Shown: positions 4,752 to 52,210 of the stretch, one piece after another
Layout: each line of letters opens with the position of its first letter
Position numbering within the stretch: the first letter of the stretch is position 1
Source of the DNA: Pengzhenrongella frigida
Lineage (GTDB): Bacteria; Actinomycetota; Actinomycetes; Actinomycetales; Cellulomonadaceae
Length of the DNA stretch: 52,210 nt
Direction of reading: 5' to 3'
Assembly (NCBI RefSeq): GCF_004168625.1
Contig: NZ_SDWW01000034.1
Coordinates: 1-52,210, forward strand
The notes under the pieces: generated by a model
Seen by the model: the letters and a program-made list of their open reading frames with translations, nothing else
Databases searched by the model: none
What the model was told of the DNA's origin: nothing
Program-made: the position numbers and the translations under genes

Positions 4752-6644
4752 ATGGGCCTGCTCGCCCGTATCCAGTCGCCGGCTGACCTCAGACGGTTGA
4801 GCGGCCGACAGGTCGACGAGCTGGCCGCCGAGATCCGTGAGTTCCTCGTCCAGTCCGTCTCGCGCACGGGCGGTCATCTGGGGCCGAACCTCGGGGTCGT
4901 GGAGCTCACGCTCGCACTGCACCGCGTCTTCGAGTCACCGCGCGACTCGATCGTCTTCGACACCGGCCACCAGTCCTACGTGCACAAGCTCGTCACCGGT
5001 CGGCAGAACTTCGGTGACCTGCGCAAGCGCGGGGGGCTGTCGGGCTACCCGAGCCGGTCCGAGTCCGTGCACGACATCGTCGAGAACTCGCACGCCTCGA
5101 CGGCGCTGAGCTGGGCCGACGGCATCGCGAAGGCCAACCAGGTCCAGGGCCGGACGGACCGGCACGTCGTCGCGGTGATCGGCGACGGTGCGCTCACCGG
5201 CGGCATGGCATGGGAAGCGCTCAACAACATCGCCGGCGGTCCCGACCGCCGCGTGGTCATCGTGGTGAACGACAACGGCCGGTCGTACGCGCCGACGATC
5301 GGCGGCCTCGCCCACCACCTCGACACGCTGCGCACGACCCGCGGGTACGAGAACTTCCTGTCCTGGGGCAAGCGCACGCTGCCGCGCCTGGGTGTCCCCG
5401 GTCAGATGGCGTACGACGCCCTGCACGGCCTGAAGAAGGGCATCAAGGACGTCGTCGCGCCGCAGGGCATGTTCGAGGACCTCGGGCTCAAGTACGTCGG
5501 CCCGGTGGACGGGCACGACACGGCCGCCGTCGAGCACGCGCTGCGTCGCGCCAAGGCCTACGGCGGACCCGTCATCGTGCACGTCATCACCGAGAAGGGC
5601 CGGGGCTACAGCCCGGCCGAGCAGGACTCGCTGGACCGGTTCCACGCCGTCGGGCAGATCCACCCGGAGACCGGGCTGCCGGTCGCGCCGTCCCGGTTCG
5701 GCTGGACCAAGGTCTTCGCCGACGAGATGGTCCAGATCGGTCGACGTCGGCCCGACGTCGTGGCGATCACCGCCGCGATGCTCGCGCCGGTCGGCCTCGC
5801 GCCGTTCGCCGCGGAGTTCCCCGGCCGGACGTTCGACGTCGGGATCGCCGAGCAGCACGCGGCGACCTCGGCCGCGGGCATGGCCTTCGCCGGGCTGCAC
5901 CCGGTCGTGGCCGTCTACGCCACGTTCCTCAACCGTGCGTTCGACCAGGTGCTGATGGACGTCGCGCTGCACCACGCGGGCGTCACGTTCGTGCTGGACC
6001 GCGCGGGCATCACGGGGGACGACGGCGCCAGCCACAACGGCATGTGGGACATGGCGATGCTCACCTCCGTGCCGGGGCTGCACCTCGCGGCGCCGCGCGA
6101 CGAGCCGACGCTGCGATCGGCGCTGCGCGCGGCCGTCGACATCGACGACGCCCCGAGCGTGGTGCGCTACCCCAAGGGGGCCGTCGTCGAGCCCATCACG
6201 GCGATCGACACGATCGACGGGGTGGACCTGCTGGCGCGCCACGAGGTCGGCACGGGCCGGGAGGTCCTCGTCGTCGGCGTCGGGGCGCTGGTCCCGACGG
6301 CTCTCGCGGTCGCCGAGCTGCTCGCCGCGCACGGTCTGCGCGTCACCGTGGCCGATCCCTGCTGGGTCCTGCCGATCCCGGCCGCGCTCGTGAAGCTCGC
6401 CGGCGAGCACGACCATGTCGTGACGATCGAGGACGGGCTGGCGGCGGGCGGTGTCGGCTCGATGCTGGCCCAGCGCTCGACCGAGGCGGGGGTGCGCACG
6501 CCGGTCCAGTCGATCGGCATCCCGCTCGGGTTCCTGGAGCACTCGAGCCGCGACCAGATCGTCGGCGACCTTCGGCTGCGACCGGAGGACATCACGCGTG
6601 ACGTCCTGACGGCGCTCGCGGCGGCCAACCCCGCCGGACGCTGA
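4752..6644 (+). CDS. dxs: 1-deoxy-D-xylulose-5-phosphate synthase
   Basis: A 630-residue thiamine-diphosphate enzyme that condenses pyruvate and glyceraldehyde 3-phosphate, the first step of the MEP isoprenoid pathway. The family order is intact: N-terminal [35 protein letters not shown], the ThDP/Mg site [16 protein letters not shown], the transketolase central domain with [18 protein letters not shown], and the C-terminal transketolase domain starting near residue 490. Length is standard. The ATG at 4752 follows GGAAGAAG at suitable spacing, and the protein begins [16 protein letters not shown] as in homologues. It is transcribed divergently from guaB1 and appears to be a single gene. The protein also draws on the pyruvate pool used by the downstream pflB. 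Confidence 0.96.
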
Positions 6645-46638: not shown

Positions 46639-46716
46639 GTCGGCTGCGTGATCGTCCGGCGGTGAGGGTCCGCCAGTCCTGGTCCCGGGCCGCGCGCGTC
46701 CGGGCCGGGGGGGCGG

Positions 46717-46734
46717 TACCCGCCGGGGTATCCT
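46717..46734 (+). promoter_or_regulatory. CsoR/CstR-type operator and -10 of the repressor gene
   Basis: TACCC-GCCG-GGGTA (46717-46730) is a dyad with a GGGGTATCC right arm; TATCCT (46729-46734) is a -10 that overlaps it. The repressor ATG is 27 bases downstream. It matches two further sites in the window, pointing to self-repression. Confidence 0.7.
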
Positions 46735-46761
46735 GACCGGAACCGAGGCGGAGGAAGCACC

Positions 46762-47025
46762 ATGGAGCTCGACCCGAACGAGATGGGCAAGGTCATCAAC
46801 CGCCTCAAGCGCGCGCAGGGCCAGCTGGCCGGCGTGCTGCGGATGCTGGAGGAGGGCCGAGACTGCGAGGACATCGTCGTGCAGCTCTCCGCCGTCAGCA
46901 AGGCCCTGGACCGGGCCGGGTTCGCGATCATCGCCACCGGCATGCGGCAGTGCCTGGTGCAGACCGACGGCCAGGACACCCTCGACGTCCAGAAGCTCGA
47001 GAAGCTGTTCCTGTCGCTCGCCTGA
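46762..47025 (+). CDS. CsoR-family repressor, CstR-like (persulfide sensing)
   Basis: An 87-residue four-helix DUF156 repressor. It begins MELDPNEMGKVINRLKRAQG, the DNA-contacting start of the family. In copper sensors a Cys-His-Cys set binds Cu(I). Here the first cysteine is in EEGRDCEDIV and the second in GMRQCLVQTD, but the histidine four residues before the second cysteine is glycine. That Cys/Cys pattern without His is the pattern of CstR, which reacts with persulfides and derepresses sulfide-oxidising genes. The next gene is a sulfur-transfer fusion, which supports this call over copper. Binding sites precede it and two more genes. Confidence 0.85.
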   Translation: MELDPNEMGKVINRLKRAQGQLAGVLRMLEEGRDCEDIVVQLSAVSKALDRAGFAIIATGMRQCLVQTDGQDTLDVQKLEKLFLSLA

Positions 47026-47050
47026 CAGGGTTGTGACGCACGACACACTG

Positions 47051-47066
47051 ATACCCCTAGGGGTAT
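47051..47066 (+). promoter_or_regulatory. Perfect CstR-type operator before the sulfur fusion gene
   Basis: ATACCCCTAGGGGTAT is a perfect 16-base palindrome about 78 bases before the fusion gene's ATG and 26 bases after the repressor stop. The final TAT joins GCG to give TATGCG, a possible -10, so a bound repressor would block RNA polymerase. Confidence 0.85.
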
Positions 47067-47143
47067 GCGACGTTGGTCCTGCGGAGCGGTGCCTCCCCCC
47101 TCGTACGGTCGTGAGAACGAACCCAACGTGAGGACGCACCACC

Positions 47144-49738
47144 ATGAAGATCGTCGTCGTCGGCGGAGTAGCGGCAGGAATGTCGATCGCGGCGCGGGCC
47201 CGCCGGTTGGACGAGTTCGCCGAGATCGTGGTGTTCGAGCGGGGGCACCACGTCTCGTTCGCGAACTGCGGCCTGCCGTACCACATCGGTGGGGTGATCA
47301 CGGAGCGCAGCCGGTTGATGCTCCAGACGCCGCAGAGCCTGAGCGAGTCGCTCGACCTCGACGTGCGCATCGGCGTCGAGGTGATCTCGATCGACCGCGA
47401 GGCGAAGACCGTGCGGGCGCGCGACGTCGACTCCGGCAAGGAGTACGACGAGCCGTACGACGCCCTCGCGCTCGCCCCGGGCGCCAACCCCGTGCGCCCG
47501 AACCTGCCCGGCATCGACCTCCCGCAGATCCAGGTGCTGCGCCGGATCGGCGACATGGACGCGATCAAGGCCATGGTCGACGGCGCCGCAGGCGCAATGG
47601 TCGACGGCGCCGCAGGCGCAATGGTCGACGGCGCCGCAGGCGCAATGGTCGACGGCGCCGCAGGCGCAAATGTCGACAGCAAGGACCGCGCGGGTGGCAT
47701 CAAGCACGCCGTCGTGATCGGGGCGGGCTACATCGGCCTCGAGATGGCCGAGAACCTGCACGAGCGCGGCGTCGCGGTCGAGATCGTCGAGATGGCCGAC
47801 CAGATCGTGCCGCCGCTGGACCGCGAGATGACGACGCCGATGGAGAACTATCTGCGGGCGCACGGGATCGCGCTGCACCTGAAGACCGCGGCCGCGGCGT
47901 TCGCGCGGGGCCGCGGCGACCAGGTCAAGGTCGAGCTCAAGAACAACACGTTCATCGACACGGACCTCGTGATCCTCGCCGCGGGCGTGCGTCCCAGCAC
48001 CGAGCTCGCCGTGGCCGCCGGGCTCGAGCTCGGCCCGCGCGGCGGCATCCTCGTGGACAAGCACATGCGGACCTCTGACCCGGCCATCTTCGCGGCCGGC
48101 GACGCGGTCGAGGTCGAGCACACCGTGCTCCCCGGGACCTGGCTGATCCCGCTGGCCGGGCCGGCGAACCGCCAGGGGCGGGTCGCGGCCGAGAACATCT
48201 GCGGTCGGGACACCGTGTACGACTCCACCCAGGGCACGTCGGTCGTGAAGGTCTTCGAGATGGTCGCGGGCGGGACCGGTGCCACCGAGAAGCAGCTGAT
48301 CGCGGCCGGGCTGCCGTTCTCGGCCGTGTCGACCCACCCGAACGGGCACGCCGGGTACTACCCGGGCACCGCCATGATGACCGTCAAGGTCCTGTACGCG
48401 CCGGACACGGGCCGGATCCTGGGCGCGCAGGTGGCGGGGTTCGACGGCGTCGACAAGCGGCTGGACGTGCTCGCCACCGCGCTGCGGGCCGGGATGACCG
48501 TGTACGACCTGGAGACCCTCGAGCTGTCCTACGCCCCGCCGTTCGGTGCGGCCAAGGACCCGGTCAACATGGTCGGGTTCGTCGCGTCCAACGTGCTGCG
48601 CGGCGACCTCGCGCTGTGGCGGGCGAGCGACTACCCCGAGGCGACCGAGGGCGCGCGGATCATCGACGTGCGCGGCCCGGACGAGTTCGACGTGTGGCAC
48701 CTGCCGGGTGCGGAGAACGTTCCGCTCAAGGACCTGCGCGCTGCCCAGGAGAGCTGGGACCGCGCGACCCCGATCCGGCTGTACTGCTCGGTGGGTTTCC
48801 GCAGCTACCTCGCCTACCGGTCGCTGGCCCAGCGCGGGTTCCTCGACGTCAAGACCCTCTCGGGCGGGATGCGCACGTTCCGGGCGTTCCACGACGTCGC
48901 GCCGAGCGAGATCGACGCCCCGCTGCCGGTGACCTCGTACGCCGAGCACGTCCGCGCCGTCCCCGAGCCGGTGTCCACCGGCGTGTTCATCGACCTGGAC
49001 TGCACCGGGCTCGCCTGCCCGGGGCCGATCATGAAGCTGCAGGAACGGATCGGCACCCTGGCCCCGGGCGACGAGATCCTCGCGCACGTGTCCGACGCCG
49101 GCTTCCGGCTCGACGCCCCGGCGTGGGCGGCGAAGAACGGTCACGAGATCCTCGCGCTGACCCCGGAGGGTCCGGGCTACGCCGCGCGCATCCGCAAGGG
49201 GCGCCCGGCCGGTGCGGCGACCGGTCCCGGGGGAGCGGTGGCCTTCTCCGGTGCGGCCGCGCGCCTCAAGGACAAGAAGTCGTTCGTGGTGTTCTCGGGC
49301 GAGCTCGACAAGGTGCTGGCGGCGTTCATCCTCGCCAACGGCGCGGTCGCGATGGGCGACGAGGTGTCGATGTTCTTCACGTTCTGGGGCCTGAACTCCC
49401 TGCGGCGGGACAACCCGCCGGCGCGCGAGCGGTCGAAGCTCGACCGCATGTTCGGGGCGGTGCTGCCGTCCGGGGCCGGGAACCTGAAGCTGTCCACGCT
49501 CAACATGCTCGGCGGGGGCACGCTGCTCATGAAGAAGGTCATGAAGGACAACAAGGTGCCGACCCTGCCCGAGCTGATCGCCTCGGCTCAGGCCGCCGGC
49601 GTCCGCCTGGTCGGCTGCACGATGACGATGGACCTGCTGGGCATCGCGCCGGAGGACCTCATCGACGGCGTGGAGCTCGGCGGGGTCGCGACGTTCCTCG
49701 GCGAGGCCAACGAGTCCAACGGGGCGTTCTTCATCTGA
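47144..49738 (+). CDS. CoA-disulfide reductase - rhodanese - TusA - DsrE2 fusion
   Basis: An 864-residue four-part sulfur enzyme. (1) Residues 1-470 are a FAD/NAD(P)H CoA-disulfide/persulfide reductase with Cys42 in SFANCGLPYHIGG and GAGYIGLEMAENLHERG. (2) Residues 480-580 are a rhodanese with catalytic Cys548 in LYCSVGFRSYLAY. (3) Residues 610-680 are a TusA-like carrier with Cys625 in GLACPGPIMKLQ. (4) Residues 700-864 are DsrE2-like with Cys825 in VGCTMTMDLLG. The order suggests sulfane sulfur passed from the reductase along cysteines inside one polypeptide. The leading GAGGAC at the start is fair. It has a CstR-type operator. A 24-bp repeat array lies in the linker before the NAD(P)H domain. 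Confidence 0.92.
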   Translation: MKIVVVGGVAAGMSIAARARRLDEFAEIVVFERGHHVSFANCGLPYHIGGVITERSRLMLQTPQSLSESLDLDVRIGVEVISIDREAKTVRARDVDSGKEYDEPYDALALAPGANPVRPNLPGIDLPQIQVLRRIGDMDAIKAMVDGAAGAMVDGAAGAMVDGAAGAMVDGAAGANVDSKDRAGGIKHAVVIGAGYIGLEMAENLHERGVAVEIVEMADQIVPPLDREMTTPMENYLRAHGIALHLKTAAAAFARGRGDQVKVELKNNTFIDTDLVILAAGVRPSTELAVAAGLELGPRGGILVDKHMRTSDPAIFAAGDAVEVEHTVLPGTWLIPLAGPANRQGRVAAENICGRDTVYDSTQGTSVVKVFEMVAGGTGATEKQLIAAGLPFSAVSTHPNGHAGYYPGTAMMTVKVLYAPDTGRILGAQVAGFDGVDKRLDVLATALRAGMTVYDLETLELSYAPPFGAAKDPVNMVGFVASNVLRGDLALWRASDYPEATEGARIIDVRGPDEFDVWHLPGAENVPLKDLRAAQESWDRATPIRLYCSVGFRSYLAYRSLAQRGFLDVKTLSGGMRTFRAFHDVAPSEIDAPLPVTSYAEHVRAVPEPVSTGVFIDLDCTGLACPGPIMKLQERIGTLAPGDEILAHVSDAGFRLDAPAWAAKNGHEILALTPEGPGYAARIRKGRPAGAATGPGGAVAFSGAAARLKDKKSFVVFSGELDKVLAAFILANGAVAMGDEVSMFFTFWGLNSLRRDNPPARERSKLDRMFGAVLPSGAGNLKLSTLNMLGGGTLLMKKVMKDNKVPTLPELIASAQAAGVRLVGCTMTMDLLGIAPEDLIDGVELGGVATFLGEANESNGAFFI
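47573..47668 (+). repeat. Four perfect 24-bp tandem repeats within the fusion gene
   Basis: A 24-base unit (beginning ATGGTCGACGG and ending GCAGGCGCA) occurs four times without a single change, then breaks down into AATGTCGAC. Each unit encodes MVDGAAGA in frame, so copy number changes keep the reading frame. It falls at residues 144-175, between the FAD core and the NAD(P)H-binding Rossmann domain. Confidence 0.95.
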
Positions 49739-49745
49739 CCAGCCG

Positions 49746-51506
49746 CTATCTGACCGGCTGCTGTCTGACCGGCGCCGTCGGCAGCTCGAACCAGTTCAGC
49801 CCCGGGTCGCTCTGGCCCGGGCAGCTGGTCGGACTGCCGACCGGCCGGGCTCCCGGTGCGGCCGGCGGGGTCGGCGTCGCCGCGGCGAGGATCCGGCGGG
49901 CCTCGGCCAGGTAGCCGGGCAGGGCCGTCACCGGTGCACGGCGATCGTCGCGCGGGTAGGTCATCGACCCGTCGGAGGCGTACCGGATGTCGCTCAGTCG
50001 CAGCGGTGGCTCGGCGGGACGGGTGGCGTGCCGCCAGAGCCCCGTCGCGGGTTCGAAGCCGTACTCGTCGAGCAGGCGCCAGCCGTCCGAGCCGAGCAGG
50101 TCCACGGCGTCGATCAGGTAGTCGGCGACCGCGTCGGTGAGGAAGTAGTTGAGGTTCACTCGCGCCCAGCCGGGCTTGAGCCCGCTGCAGCCCGCACCGA
50201 TCGCCGTCTGGAAGGCGTCCGAGTGCCGGTCGTCGATGCCGAGCAGCTGGTGGCCGTACGGCCCGGCGCACGCGCAGCCGCCGCGGGCCTGGATCCCGAA
50301 CAGGTCGTTGAGCACCGCGACGAGGAAGTTGTGGTGCAGCAGGCGGCCCGAGGGTGCCCGCACCGTGAACGACACGATGGCGAGCCGGTCGGCCCCGGTG
50401 TCGCCGAGGATCTCGATCGCGGGGTTGGTGCGCCACCGGGCCAGGGCGCGCTCGAGCAGCGTCTGCTCCCGCGCCCGGATCGCCGCCGTGCCGACCGCGG
50501 CCTTGAGCTGCATGACCAGGCCGGCGCGGATCGACTCGACGATGGCGGGCGTGCCGCCCTCCTCCCGGAGCTCGACGTCGGACAGGTAGGCGTGCAGGTG
50601 CGGGGTCACGAAGGCGACCGTGCCGCCACCGGGTACGACCGGGACCCGGTTGTGCGCGAGGTCCCGGCGCACGAGGAGCACCCCCGGGGTTCCGGGGCCG
50701 CCGATGAACTTGTGCGGGCTGAGGAAGACCGCGTCCTTGGCCGTGGCCGGATCGGCGTCGGTCCCGTCCGGCCCGGTCGGCCCGTCCATGTCGATGTCGA
50801 CGTAGGGTGCGGCCGCCGCGAAGTCGAAGAACGCCAGCGCGCCGTGGCGGTGCAGCAGCGCGGCGACCGCGGCGGTGTCGGTGAGGATCCCGGTGACGTT
50901 GCTCGCGGCGGAGAAGGCCCCGATCTTGAGCGGTCGGTCCGCGTACCGCGTCAGCTCGGCCGCCAGCGACACCAGGTCGATGTGCCCGACGTCGTCGGCG
51001 CCGATCGCCACGACGTCCGCGATGGTCTCGCGCCAGGCGAGCTCGTTGGAGTGGTGCTCGTACGGGCCGACGAAGACGACCGGCCGCTGCTCCGGCGGGA
51101 TCTGGGCGGAGAGGTGGAACCGGTCGTCGAGGTCGGCCGGCACCCGCAGCTGCAGGATCCCGACGAGCTTGTCGATCGCCGCGGTGCAGCCCGATCCGCA
51201 GAACACCACGGCGGTGTCCTCGTCGGCCCCGGCCGCTGCGCGGATGATCTGGCGGGCGTCCTCGCGTAGCCGACCGGTAGCCAGCCCGGTGGCGCTCGAC
51301 TCGGTGTGGGTGTTCGCGTAGCGGGGAAGGACCTCGGCGCGGATGAAGTCCTCGAGGAACGCGAGCGAGCGCCCGGATGCGGTGTAGTCGGCGTAGGTGA
51401 TCCGGCGAGGACCGTAGGGCCCGGCCAGGACGTGATCCTCGCCGACGACGGCGGCCGCGATCGCCGCGATCAGGGCGTCGGGGGAGTGCGGTTCACTGGG
51501 GAGCAT
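49746..51506 (-). CDS. Class V aminotransferase (cysteine desulfurase-like)
   Basis: A 586-residue PLP enzyme of the class V aminotransferase fold. The PLP lysine is Lys266 in AVFLSPHKFIGGPGTPGVLL; upstream are GSGCTAAIDKLVGIL, FVGPYEHHSNELAWRETIAD and the DFAAAAPYVDIDMDG acidic site. A Cys-containing loop, GIQARGGCACAGPYGHQLLG, sits where cysteine desulfurases and related enzymes have their reactive cysteine, so sulfur or selenium chemistry is plausible but not proved. It is longer than IscS/SufS (about 400) by a 140-residue C-terminal part. It converges on the sulfur fusion gene with only 7 bases between stops, placing it physically inside the CstR cluster. Confidence 0.8.
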   Translation of the reverse strand: MLPSEPHSPDALIAAIAAAVVGEDHVLAGPYGPRRITYADYTASGRSLAFLEDFIRAEVLPRYANTHTESSATGLATGRLREDARQIIRAAAGADEDTAVVFCGSGCTAAIDKLVGILQLRVPADLDDRFHLSAQIPPEQRPVVFVGPYEHHSNELAWRETIADVVAIGADDVGHIDLVSLAAELTRYADRPLKIGAFSAASNVTGILTDTAAVAALLHRHGALAFFDFAAAAPYVDIDMDGPTGPDGTDADPATAKDAVFLSPHKFIGGPGTPGVLLVRRDLAHNRVPVVPGGGTVAFVTPHLHAYLSDVELREEGGTPAIVESIRAGLVMQLKAAVGTAAIRAREQTLLERALARWRTNPAIEILGDTGADRLAIVSFTVRAPSGRLLHHNFLVAVLNDLFGIQARGGCACAGPYGHQLLGIDDRHSDAFQTAIGAGCSGLKPGWARVNLNYFLTDAVADYLIDAVDLLGSDGWRLLDEYGFEPATGLWRHATRPAEPPLRLSDIRYASDGSMTYPRDDRRAPVTALPGYLAEARRILAAATPTPPAAPGARPVGSPTSCPGQSDPGLNWFELPTAPVRQQPVR

Positions 51507-51674
51507 CTCGGTCCAGACCGATCAGGGAGCGGCGGGGCGGTGGTCCTGGTCGGGACCGCATGGACGGCGCGCGGTCCGCCGGACGACCGGGCGCAGCCCT
51601 GATGATACGGACCCGGGGCGGCGGCACCGGAGGGCCTCGGTGGGCGAGCCCGTCCCTCGCCGCTTGCGCGACGG

Positions 51675-51690
51675 ATACCCCTGGGGGTAT
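51675..51690 (+). promoter_or_regulatory. CstR-type operator before the small Cys-rich gene
   Basis: ATACCCCTGGGGGTAT differs from the perfect operator at 47051 at one central position. Its TAT begins TATGGT (51688-51693), a -10, with TTGCGC 18 bases upstream (51664-51669) as -35. It lies 38 bases before the 38-residue ORF. Confidence 0.8.
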
Positions 51691-51727
51691 GGTCGTGACT
51701 CTCGTCGACCTACCAGAGGAGTCACTC

Positions 51728-51844
51728 ATGTGCAGTCCCGCCCGTTGTGCAAATTGCGGCAAGATCACCTGGTCCGGCTGCGGGATGCACGTCGACTCCG
51801 TGATGGAGAACGTCCAGCCGGCCCAGCGCTGCACCTGCCGCTGA
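51728..51844 (+). CDS. 38-residue cysteine-rich protein
   Basis: A tiny protein: MCSPARCANCGKITWSGCGM begins it and QRCTCR ends it, with six cysteines (positions 2, 7, 10, 18, 35, 37) and one histidine (21). CxxC and CxC pairs suggest a zinc or iron-sulfur knuckle, or a thiol scavenger. Similar short proteins with the pattern CxxC-GKxTWxGCGxHV are, to my memory, widespread in actinobacteria, but I know no function. The ATG at 51728 follows AGAGGAG. It has its own CstR-type operator and -10, linking it to the persulfide response. Too short for many gene finders. Confidence 0.85.
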   Translation: MCSPARCANCGKITWSGCGMHVDSVMENVQPAQRCTCR

Positions 51845-51925
51845 CCGGAGTGACCCCGCCGGGTGGCGCTGCTAGCCTGCAACGGCGGGCGACCTGGCCG
51901 GCAGGGTAGATCCGGGGGGACTGCG

Positions 51926-52150
51926 ATGGTGCCCGACGACCGGCGTTTTCCCCGGCGCGTCTACCGCACGGGGTCCGAGCCGGACATCCGGTTCTCGCTC
52001 GCGAACGAGCGCACCTTCCTGGCCTGGATCCGGACGTCGCTCGCCTTCCTGGCGGCCGGGATCGCGCTGGAGGCGCTCGAGCTGCCGATCGATCCGGCTC
52101 TGCGCCTCGCCGCGGCCCTCATCTTCGTGGCGCTGAGTGTGCCAGCCTGA
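51926..52150 (+). pseudogene. DUF202 membrane protein gene, 3' end replaced
   Basis: Encodes 74 residues of a DUF202 (YidH-like) inner-membrane protein: [20 protein letters not shown] then [20 protein letters not shown], followed by the second helix start [14 protein letters not shown]. The family has three helices in about 110-125 residues; here the reading frame meets TGA two codons after LSV. The DNA beyond about 52137 looks foreign, so the gene is probably interrupted. The ATG at 51926 follows GGGGGGA, with a TAGCCT -10 at 51873-51878. Confidence 0.65.
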
Positions 52151-52210
52151 GTTGGCCCCACTTGGACCGGTTTTGATGCTCTGATTTGGCCCCACTCCCG
52201 ACCCACCCGT
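52138..52210. mobile_element. Possible insertion-sequence end (runs off window)
   Basis: From about 52138 the sequence is less GC-rich than its surroundings and carries the direct repeat TTGGCCCCACT twice (52152-52162 and 52186-52196, 34 bases apart). Repeated short motifs at the tip are typical of IS21-family ends. Only 73 bases are visible and no transposase is in view, so the family is a guess. Confidence 0.4.

Follow-up and report, generated by a model that had tools for sequence, protein, structure and literature searches.

A predicted CstR-type reactive-sulfur regulon with a recurrent cysteine-rich microprotein in Pengzhenrongella frigida

Does a CsoR-family repressor encoded near palindromic sites, a multidomain sulfur enzyme, and a 38-residue cysteine-rich protein answer to copper or to reactive sulfur? 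The locus that raises this question lies in a 52,210-nucleotide stretch of Pengzhenrongella frigida (Actinomycetota; Actinomycetales; contig NZ_SDWW01000034.1, here C54, of a 4.3 Mb genome assembled in 126 contigs); the whole stretch is referred to as the window. From sequence comparisons, the window very probably carries part of a reactive-sulfur response regulon under a CstR-type repressor, which includes the fusion enzyme and the microprotein. A preliminary description of the window had proposed a compact CstR-like unit of this kind. The proposal agrees with the residue pattern of the repressor, the domains of the enzyme, the recurrence of the unit in relatives, and an operator spacer of 4 bp as opposed to the 5 bp of copper-type sites. 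The features are as follows.

46717..46730, no strand: operator 1, TACCC-N4-GGGTA, 31 bp 5' of the repressor start (pattern scan)
46762..47025, + strand: predicted CstR-type repressor of the CsoR family, 87 aa, with Cys35, Gly60, and Cys64 (PF02583, 85 bits; residues)
47051..47066, no strand: operator 2, perfect 16-bp palindrome ATACCCCTAGGGGTAT (pattern scan, consensus fit)
47144..49738, + strand: predicted CoA-disulfide/persulfide reductase-rhodanese-TusA-DsrE2 fusion, 864 aa (Pfam domains; solved relatives)
49746..51506, - strand: class V pyridoxal phosphate (PLP) enzyme, cysteine-desulfurase-like, 586 aa, optional member (PF00266)
51675..51690, no strand: operator 3, between the divergent PLP enzyme and microprotein genes (pattern scan, consensus fit)
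51728..51844, + strand: cysteine-rich microprotein, 38 residues, without a Pfam or NCBIfam model (translation, relatives, model searches)

A scan for TACCC-N2..6-GGGTA found three occurrences in the window, at 46717-46730, 47052-47065, and 51676-51689, and all three have a 4 bp spacer (TACCC-N4-GGGTA; N4 site in the following). In a shuffled window, 0.01 such palindromes are expected, and none of 100 shuffles reached three. The sites had been described as preceding the genes for the repressor, the four-domain enzyme, and the 38-residue protein, and the starts of these genes (46762, 47144, and 51728) do follow them. Sites 2 and 3 show no mismatch to ATACCCCTNGGGGTAT, whereas "almost identical", the wording used for all three, is loose for site 1, which has 3 mismatches in 16 positions. 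The right arm was also said to supply the TAT of a -10 element. A TAT is present at each site (hexamers TATCCT, TATGCG, and TATGGT at sites 1, 2, and 3, respectively); however, the hexamer at site 2 lacks the final T. Among the 45 exact operators located 5' of microprotein genes in the genomes discussed below, the right-arm hexamer begins with TAT in 43 and has the final T in 30.

The repressor scored 85 bits against PF02583 (cut-off 22.8), which places it in the CsoR family. Four genes of the genome match this model: the one in the window and one each on contigs C91, C59, and C79. The preliminary description had stated that the protein retains both cysteines and has glycine in place of the histidine of copper sensors. 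In the window protein these residues are Cys35, Cys64, and Gly60, and its two copper-type paralogues have His at the position of Gly60; the Cys-His-Cys ligands of a copper CsoR are thus not present. The sensor triad is Cys-Gly-Cys in the window and C91 proteins and Cys-His-Cys in the C59 and C79 proteins. The neighbours of the C79 gene encode two P-type ATPases, an HMA protein, and a multicopper oxidase domain; those of the C59 gene encode an HMA protein and an HMA-bearing P-type ATPase. Adjoining the predicted operators of the window repressor are sulfur-transfer or sulfide-oxidation genes, the gene content of the CstR subfamily. Across 149 genomes of the order, scores against the window repressor were bimodal: 88 genes scored at least 63 bits, and the other listed ones reached 46 bits at most; a CstR-like gene is present in 76 of the 149. 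In the fetched loci, 103 distinct CstR-like stretches have Gly (84), Ala (10), Ser (5), Asn (2), or Ile (2) as the middle residue, and His occupies the copper ligand position in none of the 103. These comparisons support the assignment of the window repressor to the CstR type and not to the copper-type CsoR proteins.

The spacer within the operator separates the same two groups. Pooled over three sets defined by locus (one genome may sit in two sets, such as G144 and L245; the outside-order set includes a few loci of the order; three matches remained unclassified; a matched stretch that recurred identically within a set entered the count once), exact sites by CstR-like genes had spacers of 4 bp in 77 cases, 5 bp in two, and 3 bp in one, and those by His-bearing CsoR genes had spacers of 5 bp in 56 cases, 12 bp in two, and 4 bp in none. 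Upstream of the CstR-like genes, spacers of 4 and 5 bp occurred in ratios of 19:1, 19:1, and 21:0 in three sets. At two loci, a CstR-like gene has an N5 site nearby; N4 sites are present as well at one of them and absent from the other. Forty copper-type loci, drawn from the 62 CsoR-like matches listed and including two with Tyr in place of His, had exact sites with a spacer of 5 bp (33 sites) or 6 bp (one site, at a Tyr-bearing gene). The three sites in the window have 4 bp and thus depart from the 5 bp of the copper CsoR operators.

Genome-wide counts point in the same direction. The 76 genomes with a CstR-like gene contain 302 N4 sites compared to 156 for the reversed pattern (means of 3.97 and 2.05), and the 73 genomes without one contain 89 compared to 155 (means of 1.22 and 2.12). 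Two published Streptomyces motifs fall on opposite sides of the rule, in agreement with it: in the portions of the reports available to us, the motif of the sulfane-sulfur-responsive ScCsoR is ATACCn6GGTAT, which fits sites 2 and 3 (PMC7533328), and the copper CsoR of S. lividans has an operator with an N5 spacer (PMC3902906). Operator spacing thus tracks the type of sensor, 4 bp for CstR-like and 5 bp for His-type repressors, as a correlation across related genomes. A difference of one base pair would separate the sulfur unit from the copper regulon that CsoR controls in the same cell.

The preliminary description had limited the regulon to three sites. The CstR-like unit itself is supported, but the regulon looks wider than those three sites: the genome contains 13 exact N4 sites (two for the reversed pattern), five of them on C91. 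With spacers of 2 to 6 bp, there are 18 occurrences compared to two for the reversed pattern. The C91 locus (L021, 2257-12984) holds the second CstR-like gene together with the five N4 operators, and neighbouring genes encode DsrC, DsrE2, a rhodanese, a CoADR-rhodanese (CoADR, CoA-disulfide reductase), a thioredoxin, and two FAD-dependent oxidoreductases, which we label as of the sulfide:quinone-reductase kind and which Pfam assigns to Pyr_redox_2. One N4 site on C38 precedes a second microprotein gene. An N4 operator on C52 (L026, 4308-4321) is located 121 bp 5' of a gene of the carbonic anhydrase family; this gene may encode a sulfur enzyme, because some relatives in that family act on carbonyl sulfide or carbon disulfide. 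The N4 sites of C31 and C43 sit within long reading frames, and that of C58 (L027, 5094-5107) runs into the start of a tRNA-Gln gene on the minus strand (5028-5100) and was set aside as likely false. At least three of the 13 N4 sites are therefore probably false, which leaves about ten plausible ones. N5 sites occur on C59 (one) and C79 (two).

Pfam domains divide the fusion enzyme into a CoADR-type pyridine nucleotide-disulfide oxidoreductase, a rhodanese, a TusA, and a DsrE2 part, and its solved relatives include the CoA-persulfide reductase 8a56. Counted by eye in the translation, Cys42 lies within SFANCG, and a further Cys is found in the rhodanese part; the protein thus combines an oxidoreductase bearing the CoADR cysteine with a rhodanese, as CoADR-rhodanese proteins do. 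The NCBIfam equivalog for CoA-disulfide reductase, TIGR03385, scored 444.3 bits, below its cut-off of 578.8, and its match splits into two stretches, the better one beginning at residue 185. Matches that reach the DsrE2 end were found in 12 of the 149 genomes of the order, and shorter CoADR-rhodanese matches in more. At E 1e-60, a CoADR match is present in 46 of the 149; 45 of these 46 have the microprotein, and 45 have the repressor. Among 20 annotated loci of relatives, 12 contain a CoADR match; labels from the PIGL reference, a sequence of low complexity, were disregarded in this annotation. A 24-bp tandem repeat of 4.4 copies (47573-47677) lies within the fusion gene and encodes MVDGAAGA units from residue 144; it is absent from both named homologues that are more than 55% identical (L235 and L259).

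The microprotein, which has six cysteines, was found in 73 of the 149 genomes of the order, in 92 copies. Three copies were left out of the alignment: that of G118, which has an early stop, the C38 copy of P. frigida, the match of which starts at Cys2 without an ATG, and the divergent copy of G009 (E 7e-4). In the 89 copies compared, Cys 2, 7, 10, 18, and 35 and His21 are identical, and Lys12 is present in 98%. No Pfam or NCBIfam model was above its cut-off for the four members tried, and no PHROG match was below E 0.1 for the two members tried.

The association of the microprotein with the repressor was assessed through operators and neighbouring genes. An exact operator lies within 250 bp upstream of 45 of the 92 copies, compared to 9 of 807 control windows from the same loci; because these windows are mostly coding, which weakens the comparison, the upstream stretches themselves were taken as a second control. 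The reversed pattern occurs in none of the 92 stretches, and in 100 shuffles of them a mean of 0.03 stretches contained an operator, with a maximum of one. Operators precede 44 of the 83 copies in genomes with a CstR-like gene. Among these 83, 33 copies have no such gene within 5 kb, and 20 of the 33 still carry an operator. A CstR-like gene is located within 500 bp of 33 copies and within 5 kb of 50, and a CoADR match within 3 kb of 35; 72 of the 92 copies have an operator, a repressor gene at up to 5 kb, a CoADR match at up to 3 kb, or several of these. By genome, 64 of the 73 that encode the microprotein also have a CstR-like gene, compared to 76 of 149 overall. The microprotein thus recurs as a partner of the CstR-type repressor.

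This link extends to other families of the phylum. In a sample of 296 genomes of the phylum, the microprotein was found in 36, six of them from the order; outside the order there are 33 copies in 30 genomes, and 14 of these copies, from 12 genomes, have a CstR-like gene no more than 5 kb away. We also inspected 80 named loci, the best 80 of at least 581 relatives: 37 have an operator, 41 a CstR-like gene, and 66 either one; 43 have a match to a sulfur enzyme (rhodanese, CoADR, or other), 19 have a thioredoxin match, and 70 have an operator, a repressor, or a sulfur enzyme.

Microprotein homologues also occur in 76 plasmid records, 43 of which are from Rhodococcus. For the 40 of these 76 records that were listed, with an incomplete gene table, the place of the microprotein is marked as nothing or as a hypothetical protein, and one record is unannotated. 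A homologue 64.6% identical to the query is present in phage record MT835623.1 (19139-19282). A contig assigned to Rubrivirga (L291), which we take not to be an actinobacterium, carries the microprotein with an N4 operator; misbinning of this contig is possible.

These observations suggest the following mechanism. The CstR-type repressor would sit on TACCC-N4-GGGTA operators, the right arms of which overlap the -10 element, and would thereby keep its own gene and the genes for the fusion and the microprotein off; since the right arm supplies the TAT of the -10, the bound repressor would block the polymerase. By analogy with what is reported for S. aureus CstR and S. coelicolor ScCsoR, a persulfide or polysulfide would modify the repressor cysteines and release the protein from the DNA. 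The fusion, judging from its domains, would reduce persulfides and hand sulfur among its rhodanese, TusA, and DsrE2 parts. In the microprotein, C7, C10, C18, and H21 might form a zinc-like site, with C2 and C35 left for sulfur chemistry. The spacing of C7-C10 and C18-H21 is typical of zinc ligands, and C2 becomes the exposed N-terminal residue if the Met is removed. That the microprotein takes up or carries sulfane sulfur around such a CxxC/CxxH zinc-like core is quite possible, if short of an even call. A broader proposal, which we put forward tentatively and consider rather doubtful as a whole, is that widespread Actinomycetota microproteins with a Met-Cys start and a CxxCGK-W-GCG-H core may be dedicated sulfane-sulfur handlers under CstR-type repressors, a sulfur counterpart of metallothionein, and that a one-bp spacer difference may separate sulfur from copper control in the phylum.

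Several observations weigh against the assignment of the repressor, its sites, and the microprotein to one sulfur regulon. No exact operator lies within 250 bp of 47 of the 92 microprotein genes, and 20 of the 92 have neither an operator nor a repressor or CoADR match within the above distances. One of the nine copies in genomes without a CstR-like match nevertheless has an operator upstream, and of the 76 genomes that have a CstR-like gene, 12 have no microprotein match and four (G019, G040, G072, and G090) lack an exact N4 site. Since related genomes are not independent, p-values for all these associations overstate their significance. The solved chain that best matches the repressor, 6ahx, bears His at the sensor position; the next best, 7mq1, has Asn there and is presumably a CstR, although its structure record names it CsoR. 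A structure search with the microprotein model returned nothing with E below 0.001.

The regulon could be as described and the microprotein a buffer for zinc or thiols under sulfur stress, storing or protecting them rather than carrying sulfur, which we consider somewhat unlikely. The invariant C7, C10, C18, and H21, with the nearly invariant C35, do resemble a zinc site, and residues 1-13 show a weak similarity to the N-terminus of the RNA polymerase subunit Rpb10/Rpo10, a zinc protein (E 0.3-0.8, not significant). The predicted structure is a short hairpin plus a helix, of moderate confidence (pLDDT 84.7, pTM 0.50). However, C2, C7, C10, C18, and C35 are all kept in 20 of 20 aligned rows, more than one zinc site needs, and the sulfur enzymes and thioredoxins found in 43 and 19, respectively, of the best 80 of at least 581 loci are rather the company of a sulfur-handling protein.

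The repressor may instead sense another thiol-active stress, such as nitroxyl, hypochlorite, or electrophiles. The CstR of S. aureus reacts with nitroxyl too, according to the part of the report available (PMC5480029), but the genes at the locus serve sulfur transfer and persulfide reduction, which makes this improbable. That the microprotein acts on transcription as a feedback part, through the repressor or RNA polymerase, would suit the 33 of 92 copies within 500 bp of the repressor gene and the weak Rpb10-like N-terminus; it is nonetheless quite improbable, given the 33 copies more than 5 kb away from the nearest repressor gene of their genome and the absence of a Pfam match above cut-off. 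A copper CsoR controlling a copper metallothionein, like MymT under RicR in mycobacteria, would account for the shared PF02583 family, the similar operator arms, the six cysteines of the microprotein, and the His of 6ahx, and was rejected as hardly credible on the sensor residue (no His in 103 CstR-like stretches), the sulfur enzymes as neighbours, the spacer of 4 and not 5 bp, and the absence of the microprotein, in 0 of 92 copies, from within 5 kb of copper-type CsoR genes among the 62 CsoR-like matches listed.

CstR-type sulfur regulons, including one in Streptomyces, are already known; the comparisons that follow are limited to the parts of the published accounts that were accessible. S. 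coelicolor ScCsoR, a two-Cys repressor of the CsoR family from an actinomycete like that of the window, is released by polysulfide and controls itself, a persulfide dioxygenase, a rhodanese, and a sulfite transporter; the window has the CoADR fusion and the microprotein instead, and the microprotein was not found in the accessible part of the ScCsoR account (PMC7533328). In Enterococcus faecalis too, CstR regulates a CoA-persulfide reductase that ends in a rhodanese domain (PMC9405070); in contrast, the window unit has TusA and DsrE2 fused on, plus the microprotein. In Staphylococcus aureus, a copper CsoR is likewise accompanied by a separate paralogue, which senses persulfide, and the cst operon there differs from the window unit in target genes (PMC5480029). 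The CstR homologue YrkD of Bacillus licheniformis controls DsrE, TusA, rhodanese, and thioredoxin-like genes; these are separate genes, whereas the window has one fusion, and the microprotein was not found in the accessible YrkD account (PMC9918477). The copper CsoR of S. lividans shares family and operator arms with the window repressor and differs in its spacer of 5 bp (4 bp in the window) and its copper efflux targets (PMC3902906).

Neither a repressor-linked microprotein nor the spacer rule was found in the open-licence literature searched, and the spacing may be stated in the principal papers on CstR (Grossoehme 2011, Fakhoury 2021); a literature search for the microprotein motif gave a single paper, which judging by its title concerns Arabidopsis DNA motifs. 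If they hold, two points would be new: an often unnamed microprotein that travels with the repressor across many families of the phylum, and a spacer of 4 or 5 bp that tells sulfur from copper regulons in genome sequence. The latter would make it possible to assign CsoR-family sites in the genomes of actinobacteria, and it raises the structural question of how paralogues with near-identical half-sites read one base pair.

The PLP enzyme had been described as nested inside the unit. Its gene (49746-51506) does lie between the fusion and microprotein genes, on the opposite strand; its regular membership did not hold up, since the enzyme was found in only 10 of the 149 genomes of the order (E 1e-40), and as a gene standing between repressor and microprotein in relatives it was rejected. 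An operator lies close upstream in three of the nine other copies (G033, G049, and G093, which represent two genera of one family) and not in the remaining six. The PLP enzyme is thus at most an optional member of the regulon. It scored 105.3 bits against the NCBIfam SufS model TIGR01979, below the cut-off of 475.1. Lys266 within HK and Cys411 within GGCAC are present and may be the PLP lysine and the cysteine of the C-terminal loop, respectively.

Downstream of the microprotein gene, a DUF202 gene (51926-52210) is interrupted near the contig end. Over 24 bp, the contig end is 96% identical to the end of C91; this shared stretch is perhaps the end of an insertion sequence.

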